DNA of 64,000 nt, taken from Pseudodesulfovibrio nedwellii (GTDB taxonomy: Bacteria > Desulfobacterota > Desulfovibrionia > Desulfovibrionales > Desulfovibrionaceae). Of the stretch, positions 12,124-64,000 are shown one piece after another (the stretch's first letter is position 1; every line of letters begins with the position of its first letter). A program made the translations under genes and the position numbers. The notes below the pieces were generated by a model. It did no database searches, was not told the origin of the DNA, and saw only the letters and a list, made by a program, of their open reading frames with translations. The stretch is taken from assembly GCF_027923765.1 (NCBI RefSeq), contig NZ_AP026709.1:124001-188000 (forward strand), written 5' to 3'.

Positions 12124-13389
12124 CTATTTTTTGCGCTTGGCTGCGATGGCATCATTCAACGGTGTGAGTATGGAGTCGAATGCCTTGGCATCAAAATCAA
12201 CAAAGCGGTTGGGCTCGGTTGAGCAAAGAATTAGTACGGTCCGTAGAATGTTTTTCTCATAGTATGGTTTGGCATAATAGGAGCGAATGCCTCTCGGGAT
12301 AAACAGTGCCCAGTCAATGGGCTTGATGCTGTCGAGGGTGTCGTCCACAACGAGATGGTCGATTTTGAAGCGTGCGATATCTTCGGCAATGGTTCCCTTG
12401 TAGGAGAATTTTTCGCCAGGGGTCATGTCCGCCAGAGGTGCACCAACACCGGTTACGACAACGGTCTTTCTGCGGGTTTGAATGTCGGAAAGCATGACGG
12501 CATTGCACCGCTTACCTATTTCGGACAGTTCAAGGACACGCCTGAGCATGTCGGAAATATTCGTGGCTTCATTGAATATTGCTTGTGTGTTTTCTGATTG
12601 TGTATTGGCCGTCTCTTTTTTCCCGATGTAAATAGGCAGTGCGGAAATACGGATCAGAGCGCTTTGTTTCCATGGTACCCATTGTAATTCCACGTTGGCT
12701 TTGAGGGGTTCTCCTTGTGTTGAACAGAGATCAAGCGTCCCGTTCCATGGGCGATTAGGCAAGTCCGGCAGAATTGATTCCATGATTTCGTCGTTTGTTT
12801 TGGGCGATATCTCTGTAAAATGGGGGAGCAGGCCATTCATGGCTCGCGGTAGAGCGAAAAGTTCACGTGCAGCCGCATTGGCCTGTTTGATTCTGAGTGA
12901 CTGATGGTTCATCAGGATGACGGGAGTCGGTACATTATCAATGCGGAGCCGTGATTCGGCGTCGGTTTTCTGGATGTCTCGGATAACATCCACGGTGTCA
13001 TCGACATCCAGAAGATACCCGTAATAATACCGTGGATCGGATGAGTTTACGGCGCCGGTTAGTTTGAGCCACATAATCCCGTCAGCCGGGGTGTGCACTC
13101 GAAAGACTGTCGCCATAGTTCGGCCTTCTCGCACGGCTTCAAAGAAAGCATCAAGGAGATGGACGTCTTCAGGTAGAAGCATTTGTTTTCGGAACGAGAT
13201 GTTTTTTAGAAATAGACGGGCACTGTCTCCAAGTGGGTGCAGGGAGTAGTCGTTGAGGAATTCGATACGCGATCTGGCTATTTCTATTCGCCAGAGGAGA
13301 GCAGGGAAATCATCCACAAAACTTCGGAGGTCCTGCATGGGGATTGCGTGGTTGCTGGGGGCGGTTCCTGTGTTTGTATCGCGTGTCAT
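12124..13389 (-). CDS. Cytoplasmic PAS-PAS-GAF-like sensor protein without output domain
   Basis: 421 residues and no membrane segment. Residues about 20-135 look like a PAS_3-type fold ending in YYYGYLLDVDDTVDVIRDI; a second PAS covers about 140-265 (VPTPVILMNHQSLRIKQANAAARELF). The C-terminal 140 residues resemble a GAF domain (AIFNEATNISDMLRRVLELSEIGKRCNAVMLSD). No kinase, cyclase or DNA-binding domain follows, so it must signal through a partner. It lies upstream of the GntR operon on the same strand but is separated by a hairpin and about 270 bases. Confidence 0.65.
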   Translation of the reverse strand: MTRDTNTGTAPSNHAIPMQDLRSFVDDFPALLWRIEIARSRIEFLNDYSLHPLGDSARLFLKNISFRKQMLLPEDVHLLDAFFEAVREGRTMATVFRVHTPADGIMWLKLTGAVNSSDPRYYYGYLLDVDDTVDVIRDIQKTDAESRLRIDNVPTPVILMNHQSLRIKQANAAARELFALPRAMNGLLPHFTEISPKTNDEIMESILPDLPNRPWNGTLDLCSTQGEPLKANVELQWVPWKQSALIRISALPIYIGKKETANTQSENTQAIFNEATNISDMLRRVLELSEIGKRCNAVMLSDIQTRRKTVVVTGVGAPLADMTPGEKFSYKGTIAEDIARFKIDHLVVDDTLDSIKPIDWALFIPRGIRSYYAKPYYEKNILRTVLILCSTEPNRFVDFDAKAFDSILTPLNDAIAAKRKK

Positions 13390-13548
13390 AGTGCCTCCTG
13401 TTGACCTAGTAGCAATTACTGTATTTCATGTGCTTGGTCAACGGGGGGAGGTGGTGATTAACAATTGATGTATGCCTTTCAAAATGAATTTCAGCTGTTT
13501 GCATTGAGCAATATGCATTGTTTATTCTGTACTCAAGGCCTTAATTCT

Positions 13549-14217
13549 TTATAGAAAGAGGGTTGTTTGTAGGCTTTTGACAGTCAATCCTTTCAAGCTG
13601 CAGAGGCAAATATCGGCTTTAGTAAGTACCTGTCCCGGCGAGTTCGGATTATCGAAACCAACACAGCGCATACCTGCATTTTTAGCGGCCAATACGCCAT
13701 GGGTTGAGTCTTCGATGACAATGCAGTCCGCAGGAGAAGCTCCGATTTTTTTAGCCGCCAACAGGAATATGTCCGGGGCGGGTTTGGCCTCCTTGACATC
13801 GTTGCCGCCCACGATCGTTGTGATGGTTGTGTTCAGACCTATGGCCGTCAATGTGGCTTCGATAACATCCGTTGTATTGGAAGAGGCCAAGGCAAAGGGG
13901 ATGCTCTGTGCTTTTAGATCATTAAGCAGGGAGACTATGCCGGGAATGGGGAGCAATCCTTTGGTCGCACCGAGGAAAGTCTTGTAATGTTCCATCTTGG
14001 CATCAGACATTTCTTGTGGTGTTGCTTTGAGTTGATACTTTTCCTTCATGAATTGCCATTGGCTGACACTGGAAGTGCCAATGAGATGGCGGTATTCTTC
14101 TGGTGGACAGACGACGCCAAGTTCTGCGGCATACTCGATGAATATTTTTTCGTGGATAGGTTCGGAGTCGAAGAGAACACCGTCCATGTCAAAAAGGACT
14201 GCTCCAGGTTGTTTCAT
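13549..14217 (-). CDS. HAD-superfamily hydrolase, beta-phosphoglucomutase-like
   Basis: 222 residues with all HAD motifs: FDMDGVLFDSEP (nucleophile and acid Asp), SSNTT, KPAPD and EDSTHGV. The helical cap after motif I is typical of the phosphoglucomutase / 2-deoxyglucose-6-phosphatase / phosphoglycolate phosphatase branch. The substrate is probably a sugar or small organic phosphate. It stands alone, with about 160 bases before the next leftward gene and a divergent PilZ gene on the other side. Confidence 0.85.
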   Translation of the reverse strand: MKQPGAVLFDMDGVLFDSEPIHEKIFIEYAAELGVVCPPEEYRHLIGTSSVSQWQFMKEKYQLKATPQEMSDAKMEHYKTFLGATKGLLPIPGIVSLLNDLKAQSIPFALASSNTTDVIEATLTAIGLNTTITTIVGGNDVKEAKPAPDIFLLAAKKIGASPADCIVIEDSTHGVLAAKNAGMRCVGFDNPNSPGQVLTKADICLCSLKGLTVKSLQTTLFL

Positions 14218-14589
14218 TGTATATTCTTTGACGTTTTGCGTCCGTTAGAAAAATTATCGGGCATGGTCACTCATCAAGGCTCATGCGTCAATGATCGATT
14301 GTTCGATGGAAGTATTGATGAGTTCCCGGTTCATATGGTTTTTTTTTGCTCAATCGTTTGTCATGAAAAGGTTTTATCTATCGTATTCGTATAGGATAAA
14401 AAATAATGACAATTGTATGGATCTTCGTTGAGAAGGGAGAGTTTTACTCATTACGGAACAAGGGGGCGGTGGTTATACATATGTCGTGATTATTTCCTAT
14501 GGAGATATACGCTGACGTTTGGTACGAATATCGGGTGGAGTACCCAAAGGGTGTCTTTGGGGTGGGGAGAACCGTTGTGATGGGGGATC
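14218..14589. other. Intergenic region between divergent HAD and PilZ genes
   Basis: No gene seen. It must hold promoters in both directions. The only visible patterns are A/T runs near 14340 and 14395, and I see no clear terminator or operator. Confidence 0.4.
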
Positions 14590-15267
14590 ATGTCAAATTC
14601 AAAGACAGACGGCGCTAAAAAAGACGAGGAATTCAAGGTAAACCGCGAGCACTGGGCAGACCACTCCATTTATTATGGTGCCAGTGTGCATGTGAGCAAG
14701 ATCTTTGAAGAGGAGAAGCTCAGTGGTCGTATCGTCGGTTTGAGCGAATATAACTATTTGATTCTCGAAATTCCGTTGGTTATCGGGCATCGGGCGCGTT
14801 ATACTCCTGGGTCTACAGTCATCGTGAAGTTCGTGAATGAAGGGACTGTTTACGGATTTTATTCTGAAATACTTCAGGTTCATTACGATCCTGCCCCGAT
14901 CATGTATCTCAAATATCCCAGTGAAGTTGAGTCCTTTGAATTCCGTGCATACAAGCGTTTCGCCGGTAGAACGCCTGCTCGCATGTTCAATGATGAAGCC
15001 CATTATTATTGTCTTATTGATGACATTAGTTCCGGAGGATGCAGCCTTTCCGTGCATCAGGCCAGTCTCAAGGATAAAGAACATATTTCCCTGGATGAAA
15101 AGGCCCAACTTGTTTTCAGCCTGTCTGGTCTCGGAGAGATTGAGCTTACGTGTGTAGTTAAAAGCATGTCGCAAGAAGACGATACACTTTGCTATGGCGT
15201 AGAATTTGATACCACCGGAGAATCTTTTGAGCAGATAAGGCAATACCTTGAAATGTTGTCACGTTGA
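14590..15267 (+). CDS. PilZ-domain cyclic-di-GMP receptor (YcgR-like)
   Basis: 225 residues in two domains. The N-terminal half (about 25-115) has the beta-rich YcgR/PilZN pattern. The C-terminal half begins with an RxxxR-like segment (FRAYKRFAGR, about 116-125), followed by DDISSGG, the D/NxSxxG motif that binds cyclic-di-GMP. YcgR-type proteins slow flagellar motors or control surface behaviour. A second PilZ gene follows 150 bases later, and a chemoreceptor lies 7 kb away. Confidence 0.85.
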   Translation: MSNSKTDGAKKDEEFKVNREHWADHSIYYGASVHVSKIFEEEKLSGRIVGLSEYNYLILEIPLVIGHRARYTPGSTVIVKFVNEGTVYGFYSEILQVHYDPAPIMYLKYPSEVESFEFRAYKRFAGRTPARMFNDEAHYYCLIDDISSGGCSLSVHQASLKDKEHISLDEKAQLVFSLSGLGEIELTCVVKSMSQEDDTLCYGVEFDTTGESFEQIRQYLEMLSR

Positions 15268-60012: not shown

Positions 60013-61167
60013 TTATGTCAATTTTTCGAATGCCCTACGCATGGAGACCGCAGCCAAAATGGTACGCTCTGTCAGCGAGGCGGTGACCATGTACTCATTG
60101 TGCGAGTGGTCCTTGCCGCCAGTGGGGCCGAGACCGTCGATAACCGGAGTTCCTGCATTGGCGATGAAGTTGGCGTCTGAAACACCACCTCGTGCGCTTT
60201 CCTGAACCGGGATATCTAAATCGGTACCGGCGGAAGCCACTATTTCGTAGAGGCTGGCTATAGCCGGACTGTTCTCCATGGTCGGCCTTCCCGGTATCAC
60301 TTCCAGTTGGCAGTTTGTGCCGGGAATGGTCGGGGATGCCGCTGATTTTTCAATGGCCTCACGGAGGATTACGCCTTCTAGCTCATTCCAGTACCTACAT
60401 TCGATCTTGGCTTTGGCCGAGGGAGCGATAGTGTTCGGCCCTACCCCGCCTTCAACTAAACCGACGTTGACCGACACGCCTTTGGCGGCATTATTAAGCG
60501 TTTCAAGGGCAATGGTTTGATGCGCCATTTCAAGAATGGCACTGGGTTTCGGGCCGGTCAGATTACCGGAATGACCTGCTTGACCAAGGATTTTCAAGGA
60601 AAATGATACTTTCCCTTTTCGTGCCGTGACGATTTTTCCGCCAGGGCTGGAGCATTCGAAGACAAAGGCCATGGCCGCTTTTTTTGCTTCTTCGATGATG
60701 AGGTCCTGCGAATGTGGTGAACCTATTTCTTCGTCTGAGTTAAAGACAAAAGTGATCGGCATATCACCAAGAAGGCCTGCTGCATCAAGAGCTTTGAGCG
60801 CATAAATACCGACGACCAGCCCTCCTTTCATATCCACCACGCCGGGGCCGATGATGGTATCGCCATCCGGGCGGAAACAATCGAATCCATCTTCGGGTGG
60901 AAAGACTGTGTCCATGTGACCACAGAGTAGAAGGCCGCGCTTTTCAGATTGGGCTGCGTTTTGCGTGACTAGATTGTCGCCAACAACGTCTCGTTTTTCG
61001 CGGTGCACAATGAATCCCATGTCGGTCATCACGCTTTCAAGGACCGTGGCTACGGCATCAGTCCCCAGTTTATTGGGCGTGTAGCTGTTTATGCATACGA
61101 TCTTTTTGAGCAGGTCCATCATTTCCTGCTCGTGATTCGTGATGTATGTGCGAATGGTATTGAGCAT
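60013..61167 (-). CDS. M20-family metallopeptidase / amidohydrolase (carboxypeptidase G2-like)
   Basis: 384 residues with the dinuclear zinc ligands in CGHMDTVFP, VVDMKGGL, SDEEIGS, VFECSSPG and DHSHNEYM, and a dimerisation domain (about 180-295). There is no signal peptide, so it is cytoplasmic. Family members cleave C-terminal Glu or acyl-amino-acid amide bonds. The start shares one base with the stop of the KamA-like gene (TAATG), so translation is coupled. It probably hydrolyses or recycles the product of the two upstream enzymes. Confidence 0.9.
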   Translation of the reverse strand: MLNTIRTYITNHEQEMMDLLKKIVCINSYTPNKLGTDAVATVLESVMTDMGFIVHREKRDVVGDNLVTQNAAQSEKRGLLLCGHMDTVFPPEDGFDCFRPDGDTIIGPGVVDMKGGLVVGIYALKALDAAGLLGDMPITFVFNSDEEIGSPHSQDLIIEEAKKAAMAFVFECSSPGGKIVTARKGKVSFSLKILGQAGHSGNLTGPKPSAILEMAHQTIALETLNNAAKGVSVNVGLVEGGVGPNTIAPSAKAKIECRYWNELEGVILREAIEKSAASPTIPGTNCQLEVIPGRPTMENSPAIASLYEIVASAGTDLDIPVQESARGGVSDANFIANAGTPVIDGLGPTGGKDHSHNEYMVTASLTERTILAAVSMRRAFEKLT

Positions 61168-62717
61168 TATTTCTTGCCGTACTGGTTGAAGGCAAAATTG
61201 GTATCATTGCCATAACCTTCTGGATCGGCGTCAGGATAACGGACTTCGCCTCCCCACGGCTTTTGGAGAATGACAGCTCCGTCTTCGCGTCCTTGAACAT
61301 TGTCGCGGTGGAGTGGAATTTTTCCGCCAGCCGCTGCGATATAACGAGGGATGGCATCGCCAGAAATATTGCCGTACATGCCTTCCACAATATCCCGACC
61401 TTTTTGGATGGGGACGCGCATATGGTAGTACTGAGGGTTTCGGTAGGAGCAGTTAAAGATGTAGTATGGGCGTATGTATGCTTCCTGAATAGTCTCGCAC
61501 AGGTGCCACATTTTGACTTTGGAATCATTGATGCCGCGCAGTAGGACTGCCTGATTGAGCACGGCGGAGACTCGTTTGGAAATGTCTTTGAACGCTTGTC
61601 GGGAAACGGGGGTGATTTCTTGAGCCGTGTTGATTTGTGTAACCACGCGCACGGGCTTCTTGTCATTGCTTTCTTCCAGAATGTCGAGAAGCTCGGCATC
61701 AATGCGCTGCGGGGTGGTGACTGGTACACGGGTACCGAGGCGTTTCATCTTGATGTGGTCGATGTCATCCAGTTTGCCGAGCAGCCAACGCAGGGAACTG
61801 TTGGACAACATGAAGGCGTCACCACCGGTAATCAACACGTCACGAATGGCCGGTTTTGAAGCGATGTAGTCTAAGGCTTCCTGATAGGCGGCCTTGGAGA
61901 ATGTACGGTCAGATCCGCCGATGTGGGCAATGCGTAAACAGTGTGTGCAGTACATGGCGCAAATGTTGGTAGATTTGAGGGCCACCACACGCGGGTAAAA
62001 TTGGTCAACAAGGCGGACTGGAGAGTGGTCTGATGCTACGGGTGGAATTTCTTCACCTACAGTGTCGACCATTTCTGCGGTGGGAACCGCCTGAAGGATG
62101 ACGGGGTCATTGGGTACAGGCTGAATCAGACTGGCATAATACGGCGTCATGCGCATCCGATATTTCTCGGTGATGCGGGCAACATCTTGAATACAGTCGT
62201 CAGGAAGGTCGAGGCATTTTTGCAAGGTTTCGGTATTGTCGATGCAGTTGCCAAGTTGTCCAGAAAAGGAATTCCAGTCGTCGTTTGTCATGCCCAAAAC
62301 TGATTTGATACGGGTCTGGTTTTCGAGAATTTTGTCCCAGAGTTGAATACCGCTTGGGGCTTCAGTGTCCTTGCGTGCCAAGTAGTCTTTCACACGCAGG
62401 CCTGCGTCAGTGATGATCTCAAGGGCGCGGCCTACGCGGCCACCGATGGTCACGGAGTGCTCATCGATCTCGACATGCTTGGCACACAGTTCGACAAGGT
62501 TTTCACGGGTCAGGCCGTAGGCTTCGTAGCCGGGACCGCCTGCTGTTTTGGCATTTTTGAGAGCGTGGAACAGGGCCACGATAGGCGCTGTGCCATCACT
62601 CGCTGTGGCGTCGGCGTAAAGCTGTTGCATGTTGGTGGAATCGACATCGGTTGCAGTACCGTTGCCGGAAATCTGTTCAAGCAAGTCCGTAGTAAAACCA
62701 TCCAATTGAAAAGCCAT
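61167..62717 (-). CDS. KamA-family radical SAM aminomutase of unassigned substrate
   Basis: 516 residues. The radical SAM cluster is CAMYCTHC (Cys253, 257, 260), followed by Arg262 at the position that binds the substrate carboxylate in lysine 2,3-aminomutase. The N-terminal part of the core (MTPYYASLIQPVPNDPV) clearly matches that enzyme. The PLP lysine sits in AAAGGKIPL (about 467) where lysine aminomutase has PGGGGK, in a loop three residues shorter. The two Asp that hold the lysine side chain are gone: YIFNCS has Ser where YxxCD is expected, and no Asp precedes the PLP lysine. About 125 extra residues at the N-terminus are unexplained. It likely makes a beta-amino acid other than beta-lysine. 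Confidence 0.88.
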   Translation of the reverse strand: MAFQLDGFTTDLLEQISGNGTATDVDSTNMQQLYADATASDGTAPIVALFHALKNAKTAGGPGYEAYGLTRENLVELCAKHVEIDEHSVTIGGRVGRALEIITDAGLRVKDYLARKDTEAPSGIQLWDKILENQTRIKSVLGMTNDDWNSFSGQLGNCIDNTETLQKCLDLPDDCIQDVARITEKYRMRMTPYYASLIQPVPNDPVILQAVPTAEMVDTVGEEIPPVASDHSPVRLVDQFYPRVVALKSTNICAMYCTHCLRIAHIGGSDRTFSKAAYQEALDYIASKPAIRDVLITGGDAFMLSNSSLRWLLGKLDDIDHIKMKRLGTRVPVTTPQRIDAELLDILEESNDKKPVRVVTQINTAQEITPVSRQAFKDISKRVSAVLNQAVLLRGINDSKVKMWHLCETIQEAYIRPYYIFNCSYRNPQYYHMRVPIQKGRDIVEGMYGNISGDAIPRYIAAAGGKIPLHRDNVQGREDGAVILQKPWGGEVRYPDADPEGYGNDTNFAFNQYGKK

Positions 62718-62718
62718 G

Positions 62719-64000
62719 TCAGTACCTATTTGTTTCCCGGTTGACGATGGATTCCGCCAACCTGTTTGTTCCTTTTTTCAGCTCTTGAAGCATATCCTTG
62801 CGTGTGGCTGCAACAGCGGCCACGCGTCCTAGAAATGTTCCGGCTTTGACCAGAACATTTTCTCCTGTGTGTTCAAGGACGATGTGCCCGTGTAGCCCGT
62901 CAACGGCCGTTTGAGCGAAAAGAGTGCGCTCCGGCAGGCTTTGTTTGATTTCGCTGGTGGTAACAACATCCGTTTCTACCTTGTGATTGAAAGTCCCCCA
63001 GTGAAGATTGCCGTTGATAATGGCGTCAAAGTCCGGTTCTTTTTTGTCTGTGGGGAGTTTGTCATGGAGGACAGCGTGTGCTTCCATGTCGAACAGGCTG
63101 GGTGCTCCTTTAGGGAGCAATTGCTCCAAAGCGCTGCAAAACTCCATGGTTGTTCCCTGTTTGCGCGCGTTGACTTCGATGAAAAATATATCTTCGTTTT
63201 GGGTAACGATATAATCGCATCCATAGATGCCCCGGAATCCAAGTTTGCCGAGTTCTCGGCCAATTGCTGCGGTGTAATCGCGCAGGTCTGTTTGTACGCT
63301 TGCAGGTAGTACGGATGGAAACGTGGAGCCACGGAATTTGTTGCCATCCACTATGTTCATGTCCGCGACACCGGCTACGTATACTTCGCTGTCATTGCCG
63401 ACAACGGCCAAGACTGTCGGGTCGTGTGTGTGCGGCGTGTATCCACTTATAAGGTAATGTGTCTCTGGGCAGGTGAAGCGGCCGAGTGCATCGTCAGCAC
63501 ATTGGCAAACCATGCTTTGGGCGCCACCGGCACTGTGGCTGGCCGAAACGAACATACCGTGAGGAGAGCGTTCTCCAAGTTCTTTGAGCCCTTGCTCCAA
63601 TGCCTCGGAGCCGCAGCAGATCATGAAGTCGACCACTGGGGCCACCTTGGAAAAAGTTTCGTACTGCCATGTTTTGTCATTAAGGTGTTCGATCAGATCA
63701 GCTTTTGGGCCGAGTAGGGTGACCATGTCCTTGTGTCCAAGGTTCAACTCTGGACGGCTTTCAAACATCCATACAAAAACGTGATCCTGTTGTTCAAGCA
63801 GGGTTTTTAGCAGGGAGTTGATATATGCCGATTTTGATAGTTTGTCAGAAAAAATAGACATGGGAGTTCGGTAGGCGACTTTTCGCCCGGCAGCTTCTAT
63901 TTCGGCTTTTGCGGTTGGATTGAATACCGCGAGATTGTTGAATGCCGTGGTGTCGATAAGGTCGGGGGCGATTGATATGGCTTTGAAGGGGGTGTTGAAC
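62719..64000 (-). CDS. ATP-grasp ligase-like protein, N-terminus beyond right edge
   Basis: 427 codons are visible and the frame stays open to the window edge, so the ATG at 63861 is internal: residues before it (AVFNPTAKAEIEAAGRKVAYRTPM) continue a plausible domain. A central ATP-grasp fold ends with GFRGIYGCDYIVTQNEDIFFIEVNARKQGTT, containing the Mg-binding Glu and Asn. Such enzymes join a carboxylate to an amine through an acyl phosphate. One base separates its stop from the KamA-like start. It could ligate the beta-amino acid made by that enzyme. Confidence 0.8.
   Translation of the reverse strand, partial: FNTPFKAISIAPDLIDTTAFNNLAVFNPTAKAEIEAAGRKVAYRTPMSIFSDKLSKSAYINSLLKTLLEQQDHVFVWMFESRPELNLGHKDMVTLLGPKADLIEHLNDKTWQYETFSKVAPVVDFMICCGSEALEQGLKELGERSPHGMFVSASHSAGGAQSMVCQCADDALGRFTCPETHYLISGYTPHTHDPTVLAVVGNDSEVYVAGVADMNIVDGNKFRGSTFPSVLPASVQTDLRDYTAAIGRELGKLGFRGIYGCDYIVTQNEDIFFIEVNARKQGTTMEFCSALEQLLPKGAPSLFDMEAHAVLHDKLPTDKKEPDFDAIINGNLHWGTFNHKVETDVVTTSEIKQSLPERTLFAQTAVDGLHGHIVLEHTGENVLVKAGTFLGRVAAVAATRKDMLQELKKGTNRLAESIVNRETNRY

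Follow-up and report, generated by a model that had tools for sequence, protein, structure and literature searches.

A co-inherited ATP-grasp ligase, KamA-type aminomutase and M20 hydrolase in Pseudodesulfovibrio nedwellii: a candidate pathway for an amide of a glutamate-derived beta-amino acid

What might an ATP-grasp ligase, a relative of lysine 2,3-aminomutase and an M20 amidohydrolase do together in one operon? The question is raised by the end of a 64,000-nucleotide stretch of Pseudodesulfovibrio nedwellii DNA (the window; bases 124001-188000 of a 3.76-Mb single-contig genome), where genes for the three proteins are packed on the minus strand. The gene set is conserved, its products belong to recognisable enzyme families with intact catalytic residues, and the three genes are a real, co-inherited unit. 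Because such a unit brings together an aminomutase with enzymes that form and hydrolyse amides, a beta-amino-acid amide with the M20 protein as its hydrolase is the simplest reading. On balance, it appears likely that the following three genes serve to synthesise an amide of a glutamate-derived beta-amino acid and to break it down again.

60013..61167, minus strand: M20 metallo-hydrolase of 384 amino acids, a predicted dipeptidase/amidase related to carboxypeptidase G2 (CPG2), assigned from Pfam matches and metal/catalytic residues
61167..62717, minus strand: long-type KamA radical S-adenosylmethionine (SAM) aminomutase of 516 amino acids, assigned from a TIGR00238 score above cut-off and alignment to 2a5h
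62719..64000 (window edge), minus strand: ATP-grasp amide ligase, the first gene, with a full open reading frame (ORF) of 466 amino acids, assigned from its ATP-grasp fold and a profile match to BesA

Transcription runs from the ATP-grasp gene through the mutase to the M20 gene. The ATP-grasp/mutase junction reads TGA-C-ATG, with a single base between stop and start, and the mutase/M20 junction reads TAATG, a 1-base overlap, as the first-pass annotation of the window had described. Following the contig past position 64000, which that annotation had suggested, completed the ATP-grasp ORF (L003:5719-7119, 466 amino acids): it starts at the equivalent of position 64119, 119 bases beyond the window. 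A divergent TAXI-TRAP transporter begins about 305 bases from this start, and the operon therefore has no further upstream gene.

Evidence that the genes form a unit came from the GTDB genome collection, where a pattern search based on the mutase extension yielded 81 confirmed loci; 80 of them were retained. A Desulfo-type name appears in the titles of 63 of the 80, and the labels of L068, L104 and L111 (Spirochaetaceae, Micrarchaeota and Brocadiaceae) may be binning errors. The ATP-grasp gene lies directly upstream of the mutase on the same strand in 59 of 68 loci with at least 1.7 kb of upstream sequence, and the M20 gene follows the mutase directly in 49 of the 64 loci whose downstream sequence reaches 1.5 kb or more, which disposes of the concern that homologues of the three genes might never co-occur. 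Loci on the same contig (L023/L050, and probably L132/L077, L133/L102, L134/L088 and L135/L074) were not counted twice in these figures. The nine upstream exceptions are L062, where the ATP-grasp gene lies just past the M20 gene on the other strand, five loci with a gamma-glutamyltransferase (GGT) gene, and L103, L104 and L123, which have neither. In the 39 loci where all three proteins are complete, they diverged together (Mantel r 0.77-0.80, with none of 999 permutations as high). Within the family of P. nedwellii, 6 of 119 genomes, its own included, encode the long-type mutase, and all six loci have the ATP-grasp, M20 and both TAXI-TRAP genes alongside. Across a phylum sample of 395 genomes, again including its own, the mutase occurred in 4 and the ATP-grasp protein in 8. 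Three Desulfonatronovibrio/Desulfonatronospira loci (L079:186-1304, scanned; L116:4959-6077; L109:121-1413) have a further KamA-type gene upstream of the ATP-grasp gene on the other strand. The alignments (A4, A5 and A6) were built from complete proteins, with 61 of 68 ATP-grasp, 72 of 75 mutase and 48 of 51 M20 proteins passing a length filter; rows from the family of P. nedwellii were added to A4 and A5, the near-copy L049 was excluded from all three, and L084 and L121 were excluded from A6. Trees were made from samples of 33 mutases and 26 ligases, the latter without the L139 ligase, which ends at a contig edge.

The mutase belongs to the KamA family (TIGR00238, 238.4 bits against a cut-off of 199.2) and falls short of each more specific model: glutamate 2,3-aminomutase (TIGR04368), which scores best, at 321.6 of 650 bits; lysine 2,3-aminomutase (TIGR03820, AblA) at 273 against 525.4; and arginine 2,3-aminomutase at 230 of 600. 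Its only close solved structure is 2a5h, a lysine 2,3-aminomutase that aligns from residue 143 and relative to which the window protein has about 140 extra, helical residues at the N-terminus. In KamA enzymes, CxxxCxxC is the cluster motif, an Arg134-type residue is the carboxylate arginine, and a lysine holds pyridoxal phosphate (PLP). All three align with 2a5h, as C253/C257/C260, R262 and K466; the cysteines and R262 are invariant in 75 long-type rows, and K466 is kept in at least 90%.

The substrate pocket, where the argument is drawn from aligned residues, appears to have been rebuilt. Asp293 and Asp330 of lysine 2,3-aminomutase hold the epsilon-ammonium group of lysine; in the window mutase they are replaced by Ser424 and Ala462, the latter position being Thr in the 75-row consensus. 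Ser424, Arg426, Asn427 and Arg458 are invariant in the long-type pocket, with Arg426 and Asn427 in an insert, and the loop before the PLP lysine is three residues shorter. Residues 223-229 and 236-260, around the cluster, have low confidence in the AlphaFold model. The long-type and glutamate-type mutases form separate clades (support 100/100 and 98/96), and by this placement the window mutase is a subfamily of its own. It is the single KamA match at 1e-20 in its own genome and is 99% identical to the mutase of a Pseudodesulfovibrio metagenome-assembled genome (L049). Other KamA matches in the family are 26-37% identical; the nine scanned are AblA, and the five placed in the tree form a separate clade. 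Genome G045 has the mutase in two ORFs (L022:6508-8111), through a frameshift or sequencing error, with the ATP-grasp, M20 and transporter genes intact. A divergent long-type mutase (L131:67-3460; 603 bits with the A5 profile), which accounts for one of the four phylum-sample matches, lies on a 4.9-kb contig near a carbon-nitrogen-hydrolase-like gene recognised by eye; its genome, G386, has no ATP-grasp match at 1e-30.

Additional evidence on the substrate came from clusters in which the same ligase family is paired with a different mutase. Five of the eight ATP-grasp genomes in the phylum sample lack the long mutase (three of genus g41, plus those of L129 and L130). A search of 55 genomes, in the class of one of L129/L130, found the ligase in eight: five with a glutamate-type mutase, among which are four further such clusters (L136-L139), two with the long type (L134, L135), and G503, in two pieces. 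Among the nine loci of the phylum read with a ligase and no long mutase, six (L129, L130, L136-L139) encode a glutamate-2,3-aminomutase-like enzyme and an M20 protein, and the three of g41 encode neither. The ATP-grasp, an ordinary-length KamA-type mutase and the M20 protein stand in a row in these six clusters, and the first two are fused in L129 (922 amino acids) and L136 (918 amino acids). The three mutases scanned (L129, L130 and L138) score 632.5, 604.7 and 605 bits with TIGR04368, just under its cut-off of 650, and 439-455 with the lysine model against a cut-off of 525. In all six, Lys occupies the Asp293 position and Thr the Asp330 position, and all six fall in one clade. Lys at the Asp293 position is said to be a feature of glutamate 2,3-aminomutase, as reportedly described by Ruzicka and Frey in 2007. 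Five ligases from these clusters form one clade (100/100) within the ligase-family tree, which has no outgroup. Judged by these relationships, the same ligase lineage works with both kinds of mutase, one of which is, from its residues and scores, very probably glutamate-specific. Glutamine synthetase and class I amidotransferase genes were seen by eye near two of the clusters (L137:259-6438, L129:6366-12798), with an ammonium transporter gene also in L137; none of these genes was seen by eye in L138 or L139. One long-type locus has a glutamine-synthetase-like gene (L065:4176-6629; GlnA, 364 of 429 bits) after the ATP-grasp and mutase genes on one strand, and that strand also encodes a further KamA-type protein, whose closest model is arginine 2,3-aminomutase (364 of 600 bits).

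The ligase is strongly diverged, and Pfam detects it weakly. ATP-grasp_3 matched all 65 homologues at E<=0.01, the window member with 19.0 bits under a curated cut-off of 23.2, and no Pfam family matched the in-window part of the protein at 0.001. The predicted model has an ATP-grasp fold (predicted local distance difference test score, pLDDT, 92.7), and Foldseek matched it to ATP-grasp enzymes with E values as low as 1.4e-20. A profile built from 65 relatives found its best solved-structure match in BesA (8yi6, E 3.4e-8), an L-propargylglycine--L-glutamate ligase; with the BesA gamma-glutamyl ligase model NF042917 the protein reaches 24.6 of the 750 bits required. In genus g41 (L026, L027 and L028), relatives 33-35% identical stand with no mutase or M20 gene within the 18 kb read, and the ligase family thus has a further use.

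The M20 protein scores above cut-off with both PF01546 (97.1 bits) and PF07687 (54.3 bits). Residues H84, D86, D112, E146, E147, E171 and H354, which are the metal and catalytic residues of such enzymes, are invariant in 46 aligned sequences. Its closest solved structure is carboxypeptidase G2 (1cg2), and among the 25 matches listed no NCBIfam cut-off was passed, the glutamate carboxypeptidase model NF004788 (PRK06133) giving 202.4 of 349 bits. The genome has a second M20 protein (L004:4864-6012, G000:C1 at about 3.30 Mb), 52% identical to the first; by eye, its gene adjoins a dipeptide-type ABC transporter operon on the opposite strand.

Where the ligase is missing, a different protein stands near the mutase. 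A GGT-family gene is present in five ligase-less loci (L054, L068, L070, L081 and L101), and four of these proteins, when scanned, scored 282-355 bits against a cut-off of 358. Among the 37 full loci, those with 6 kb or more on each side, GGT occurs in 4 of 5 ligase-less and 0 of 32 ligase-bearing loci (Fisher p 7.6e-5). A profile search for the ligase elsewhere in six genomes of unstated completeness, those of the five GGT loci and of L123, found none; it had no positive control, and the same profile matched the 8 phylum genomes. In the mutase tree, L101 is sister to the ligase-bearing L067 (98/100), and its GGT looks like a replacement of the ligase. Since gamma-glutamyl amides are what GGT makes or breaks, its presence in loci that lack the ligase is a further pointer to a glutamyl amide. 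Two proteins that appear to join a D-Ala-D-Ala-ligase-like ATP-grasp part to an M20 part (L054:10754-12898, scanned, and 12956-15148) directly follow the mutase and M20 genes in L054, a locus with GGT and a dipeptide transporter.

The binding protein of the neighbouring transporter resembles one that binds glutamate. The TAXI binding protein of P. nedwellii aligns with 8s4j, taken to be the glutamate-binding TAXI protein VcGluP because its residues fit the numbering in the accessible part of PMC11574862. It keeps the glutamate contacts named there (Y45, S75, Q93, H123, E125 and Y200) and has Gln for Asp157 and Thr for Met201. These two motifs recur in 22 and 20, respectively, of the 29 TAXI ORFs of these loci, which perhaps indicates a related ligand.

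We infer from this evidence that the substrate family is probably glutamate and not lysine, because of the exchange for and fusion to a glutamate-type mutase, the GGT, the likeness to BesA and CPG2, and the transporter; the product, the order of the mutase and ligase steps, the partner molecule X and the physiological role belong to the same inference. The pathway would start from glutamate, whether imported through the adjacent TAXI-TRAP transporter or synthesised by the cell itself. The radical SAM/PLP mutase would move the amino group from C2 to C3, giving beta-glutamate, and the ATP-grasp enzyme would spend one ATP to couple a glutamyl-type carboxylate with the amine of X. Were the mutase to act after the ligase, the product would be a beta-glutamyl amide. 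The M20 enzyme would hydrolyse the amide, as turnover or recovery. The first-pass annotation had supposed that a beta-amino-acid dipeptide or amide is degraded by the M20 enzyme; the conserved, co-divergent unit favours that idea, here refined to a glutamate-type substrate.

Several observations weigh against this reading. The window mutase lies below the TIGR04368 cut-off, and the Asp293 position is Ser in all 75 long-type rows, its own included, in place of the glutamate-type Lys. Because it passes no equivalog cut-off and has Ser424 where Lys would be expected, its own substrate may differ from glutamate, and the exchanged mutases are themselves just short of the glutamate threshold. The BesA alignment spans only about 100 C-terminal residues of the ligase. 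No M20 gene adjoins the mutase in 15 of 64 loci, and a search of nine of these genomes found none at 1e-40 in five; three of the other four have a distant M20 protein (163-281 bits) and one a close one (563 bits; a control genome with the operon M20 gave 587). TAXI was found in 24 of the 37 full loci and not in 13, and in one of the six glutamate-type clusters and not in five, and the own TAXI protein departs from VcGluP at two positions. In the loci with GGT, the system might serve catabolism alone. A GNAT acetyltransferase gene follows the M20 gene in three of the six loci of the family. Finally, we know of no activity recorded for any of the three proteins.

The acetyltransferase genes are as follows.

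L022:4753-5211, L023:12526-12972 and L024:12878-13330: GNAT acetyltransferase, the L023 and L024 copies being 72% and 49% identical to that of L022

The first-pass annotation had no acetyltransferase in view. This holds for the P. nedwellii locus, where none was seen by eye and nothing matched the L022 enzyme, and fails for L022, L023 and L024. The other loci of the family and the 80 loci gave no GNAT match except L050, on the same contig as L023. An acetylated product is possible in part of the family.

The order of the steps could be reversed. If the ligase acted first, a gamma-glutamyl amide would be made, the long-type mutase would act on the amide instead of free glutamate, and the M20 enzyme would free the beta-amino acid, the amide serving as a protecting or handle group, as it does in the breakdown of gamma-glutamylated polyamines. 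Alanyl protection in macrolactam biosynthesis, described in the accessible part of PMC11284099, offers another parallel. The long-type mutase lacks the glutamate-type Lys, its invariant Arg426/Asn427 insert and Arg458, with the shorter loop before the PLP lysine, might suit a longer substrate, and GGT, which is found in loci that lack the ligase, can transfer gamma-glutamyl groups. However, where a glutamate-type mutase is fused to a member of this ligase family, it retains the Lys that a free side-chain carboxylate would call for, and the loci and genomes without M20 also count against this order because a required last step would need another hydrolase. We regard it as unlikely. A related proposal, to which we give similarly little weight, is that the long-type mutase is a new enzyme acting on a gamma-glutamyl amide or dipeptide and that the operon makes a beta-glutamyl dipeptide that sulfate reducers would use as a metabolically inert solute or nitrogen store, releasable by the M20 enzyme; we know of no cell from which beta-glutamyl dipeptides have been reported.

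A route of breakdown, in which external glutamyl peptides or beta-glutamate are taken up and the mutase runs in reverse to give alpha-glutamate, would make sense of the TAXI-TRAP genes and of the GntR-type regulator found in 11 of the 37 full loci. Dipeptide ABC transporters are present in three of the five GGT loci and in the ligase-bearing L062, and the second M20 gene of P. nedwellii adjoins one. Such a route is rather improbable, however, given that no partner accompanies the mutase more constantly than the ligase, which spends ATP and in two genomes is fused to the glutamate-type mutase; the ATP cost would probably be high for a sulfate reducer on a breakdown route. Lysine was the substrate first considered, from the KamA family, and was set low by the residue comparison and the glutamate-type exchanged mutases. 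An N-acyl beta-lysine or other lysine-derived solute, its acyl group added by the ATP-grasp enzyme, would fit the kinship to KamA with 2a5h as the only close structure, and loss of the two Asp residues that hold the epsilon-ammonium group also fits an acylated lysine, as does the GNAT gene after the operon in part of the family. Against this, the exchanged mutase is glutamate-type in six clusters (three scanned, all six in one clade), and the other KamA proteins of the family are AblA where scanned and form a separate clade in the tree. A lysine-based product is therefore very improbable. The first-pass annotation had also allowed for a known lysine-degradation cluster, and this is not what surrounds the operon: read by eye from the ORF lists, without a family search, its neighbours are Qrc-like genes and transporters with no lysine-degradation gene among them, and the genome has the single KamA match. 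The genes below M20, on the opposite strand, are the end of a respiratory gene set (ORF lists, by eye), which we take to resemble Qrc.

How does an operon for a glutamate-derived amide compare with known systems? Clostridioides has a glutamate 2,3-aminomutase. This family is the best specific match of the window mutase (322 bits), and the alternative mutases lie near its cut-off; the window enzyme, however, is far under it, differs by its long N-terminal extension and the absence of the Lys, and stands in a clade of its own. No ligase or M20 partner of glutamate 2,3-aminomutase is described in the accessible parts of PMC11284099 and PMC9337991. According to the former, IdnL4 of incednine biosynthesis is a likely beta-glutamate maker whose activity was not seen in vitro, and according to the latter, there is an occasional association between Na+ riboswitches and the ablA and eam genes. 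BesA is likewise an ATP-grasp amino acid ligase, although its alignment and model score leave the window ligase far from it.

To our knowledge the carnosine cycle has no aminomutase, whereas the operon has one to supply the beta-amino acid, and its M20 protein is closest to CPG2. By analogy, the cycle would still be the best known parallel in logic, in that an ATP-grasp synthase makes a beta-amino-acid dipeptide and an M20 dipeptidase cleaves it (accessible parts of PMC3407494 and PMC6271292). In the ablA/ablB route to N-epsilon-acetyl-beta-lysine, too, a KamA-family mutase makes a beta-amino acid whose amine is then acylated. The operon mutase is not AblA, lacking Asp293 and Asp330, its constant partner is the ligase, and the window has no acetyltransferase. 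The genes for N-acetylglutaminylglutamine amide (NAGGN) encode an amidotransferase, a GNAT/ATP-grasp fusion and an M42 peptidase, with no aminomutase. NAGGN synthesis resembles the operon in using an ATP-grasp enzyme and a peptidase-type partner in a glutamate-derived solute route, but none of its three proteins was seen by eye in the P. nedwellii locus.

Whether the product is a compatible solute is a separate question. Beta-glutamate and beta-glutamine are solutes of methanogens, beta-glutamine being made in Methanohalophilus by glutamine synthetase, and ablA/ablB expression is salt-dependent in a methanogen (accessible part of PMC1224877). The glutamine-synthetase-like gene after the mutase in L065 is reminiscent of the Methanohalophilus route, and, to judge by their titles, some of the carriers were recovered from marine or saline samples. 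The first-pass annotation had favoured a compatible-solute role, and this part of its reasoning has lost ground. Eight loci (136,469 bases) gave no Rfam match and no salt- or metabolite-sensing RNA, and trehalose synthase was found in 10 of 11 genomes, that of P. nedwellii included. The idea that the operon fills a gap in the osmolyte routes of its own genome was dropped because of that trehalose synthase. Ectoine synthase had no match above cut-off in the 11 genomes, a weak test in which 0 of 14 controls matched. Because a GntR-type regulator accompanies 11 of the 37 full loci, catabolism fits as well. A solute role is possible, with the balance tilted against it.

A literature search, with subscription papers largely outside it, found no paper joining an aminomutase, an ATP-grasp enzyme and gamma-glutamyl chemistry. 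For an aminomutase with ATP-grasp, M20, osmolyte or beta-glutamate, the gene set was not described among the matches listed; one of these matches, PMC6150868, has both an aminomutase and an ATP-grasp enzyme and, by its title, concerns beta-phenylalanine breakdown. Each enzyme belongs to a known superfamily, and what is new to us is their combination, the subfamily to which the mutase belongs and both types of exchange.

If the proposed pathway is correct, many sulfate reducers would share an unrecognised metabolite based on beta-glutamate, with its ligase, its hydrolase and often its transporter identified. This would give a concrete class of compound to seek in sediment metabolomes and a new subfamily of aminomutases whose substrate pocket has been rebuilt. 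It would also provide a named gene set with which to ask how sulfate reducers handle salt or store nitrogen.

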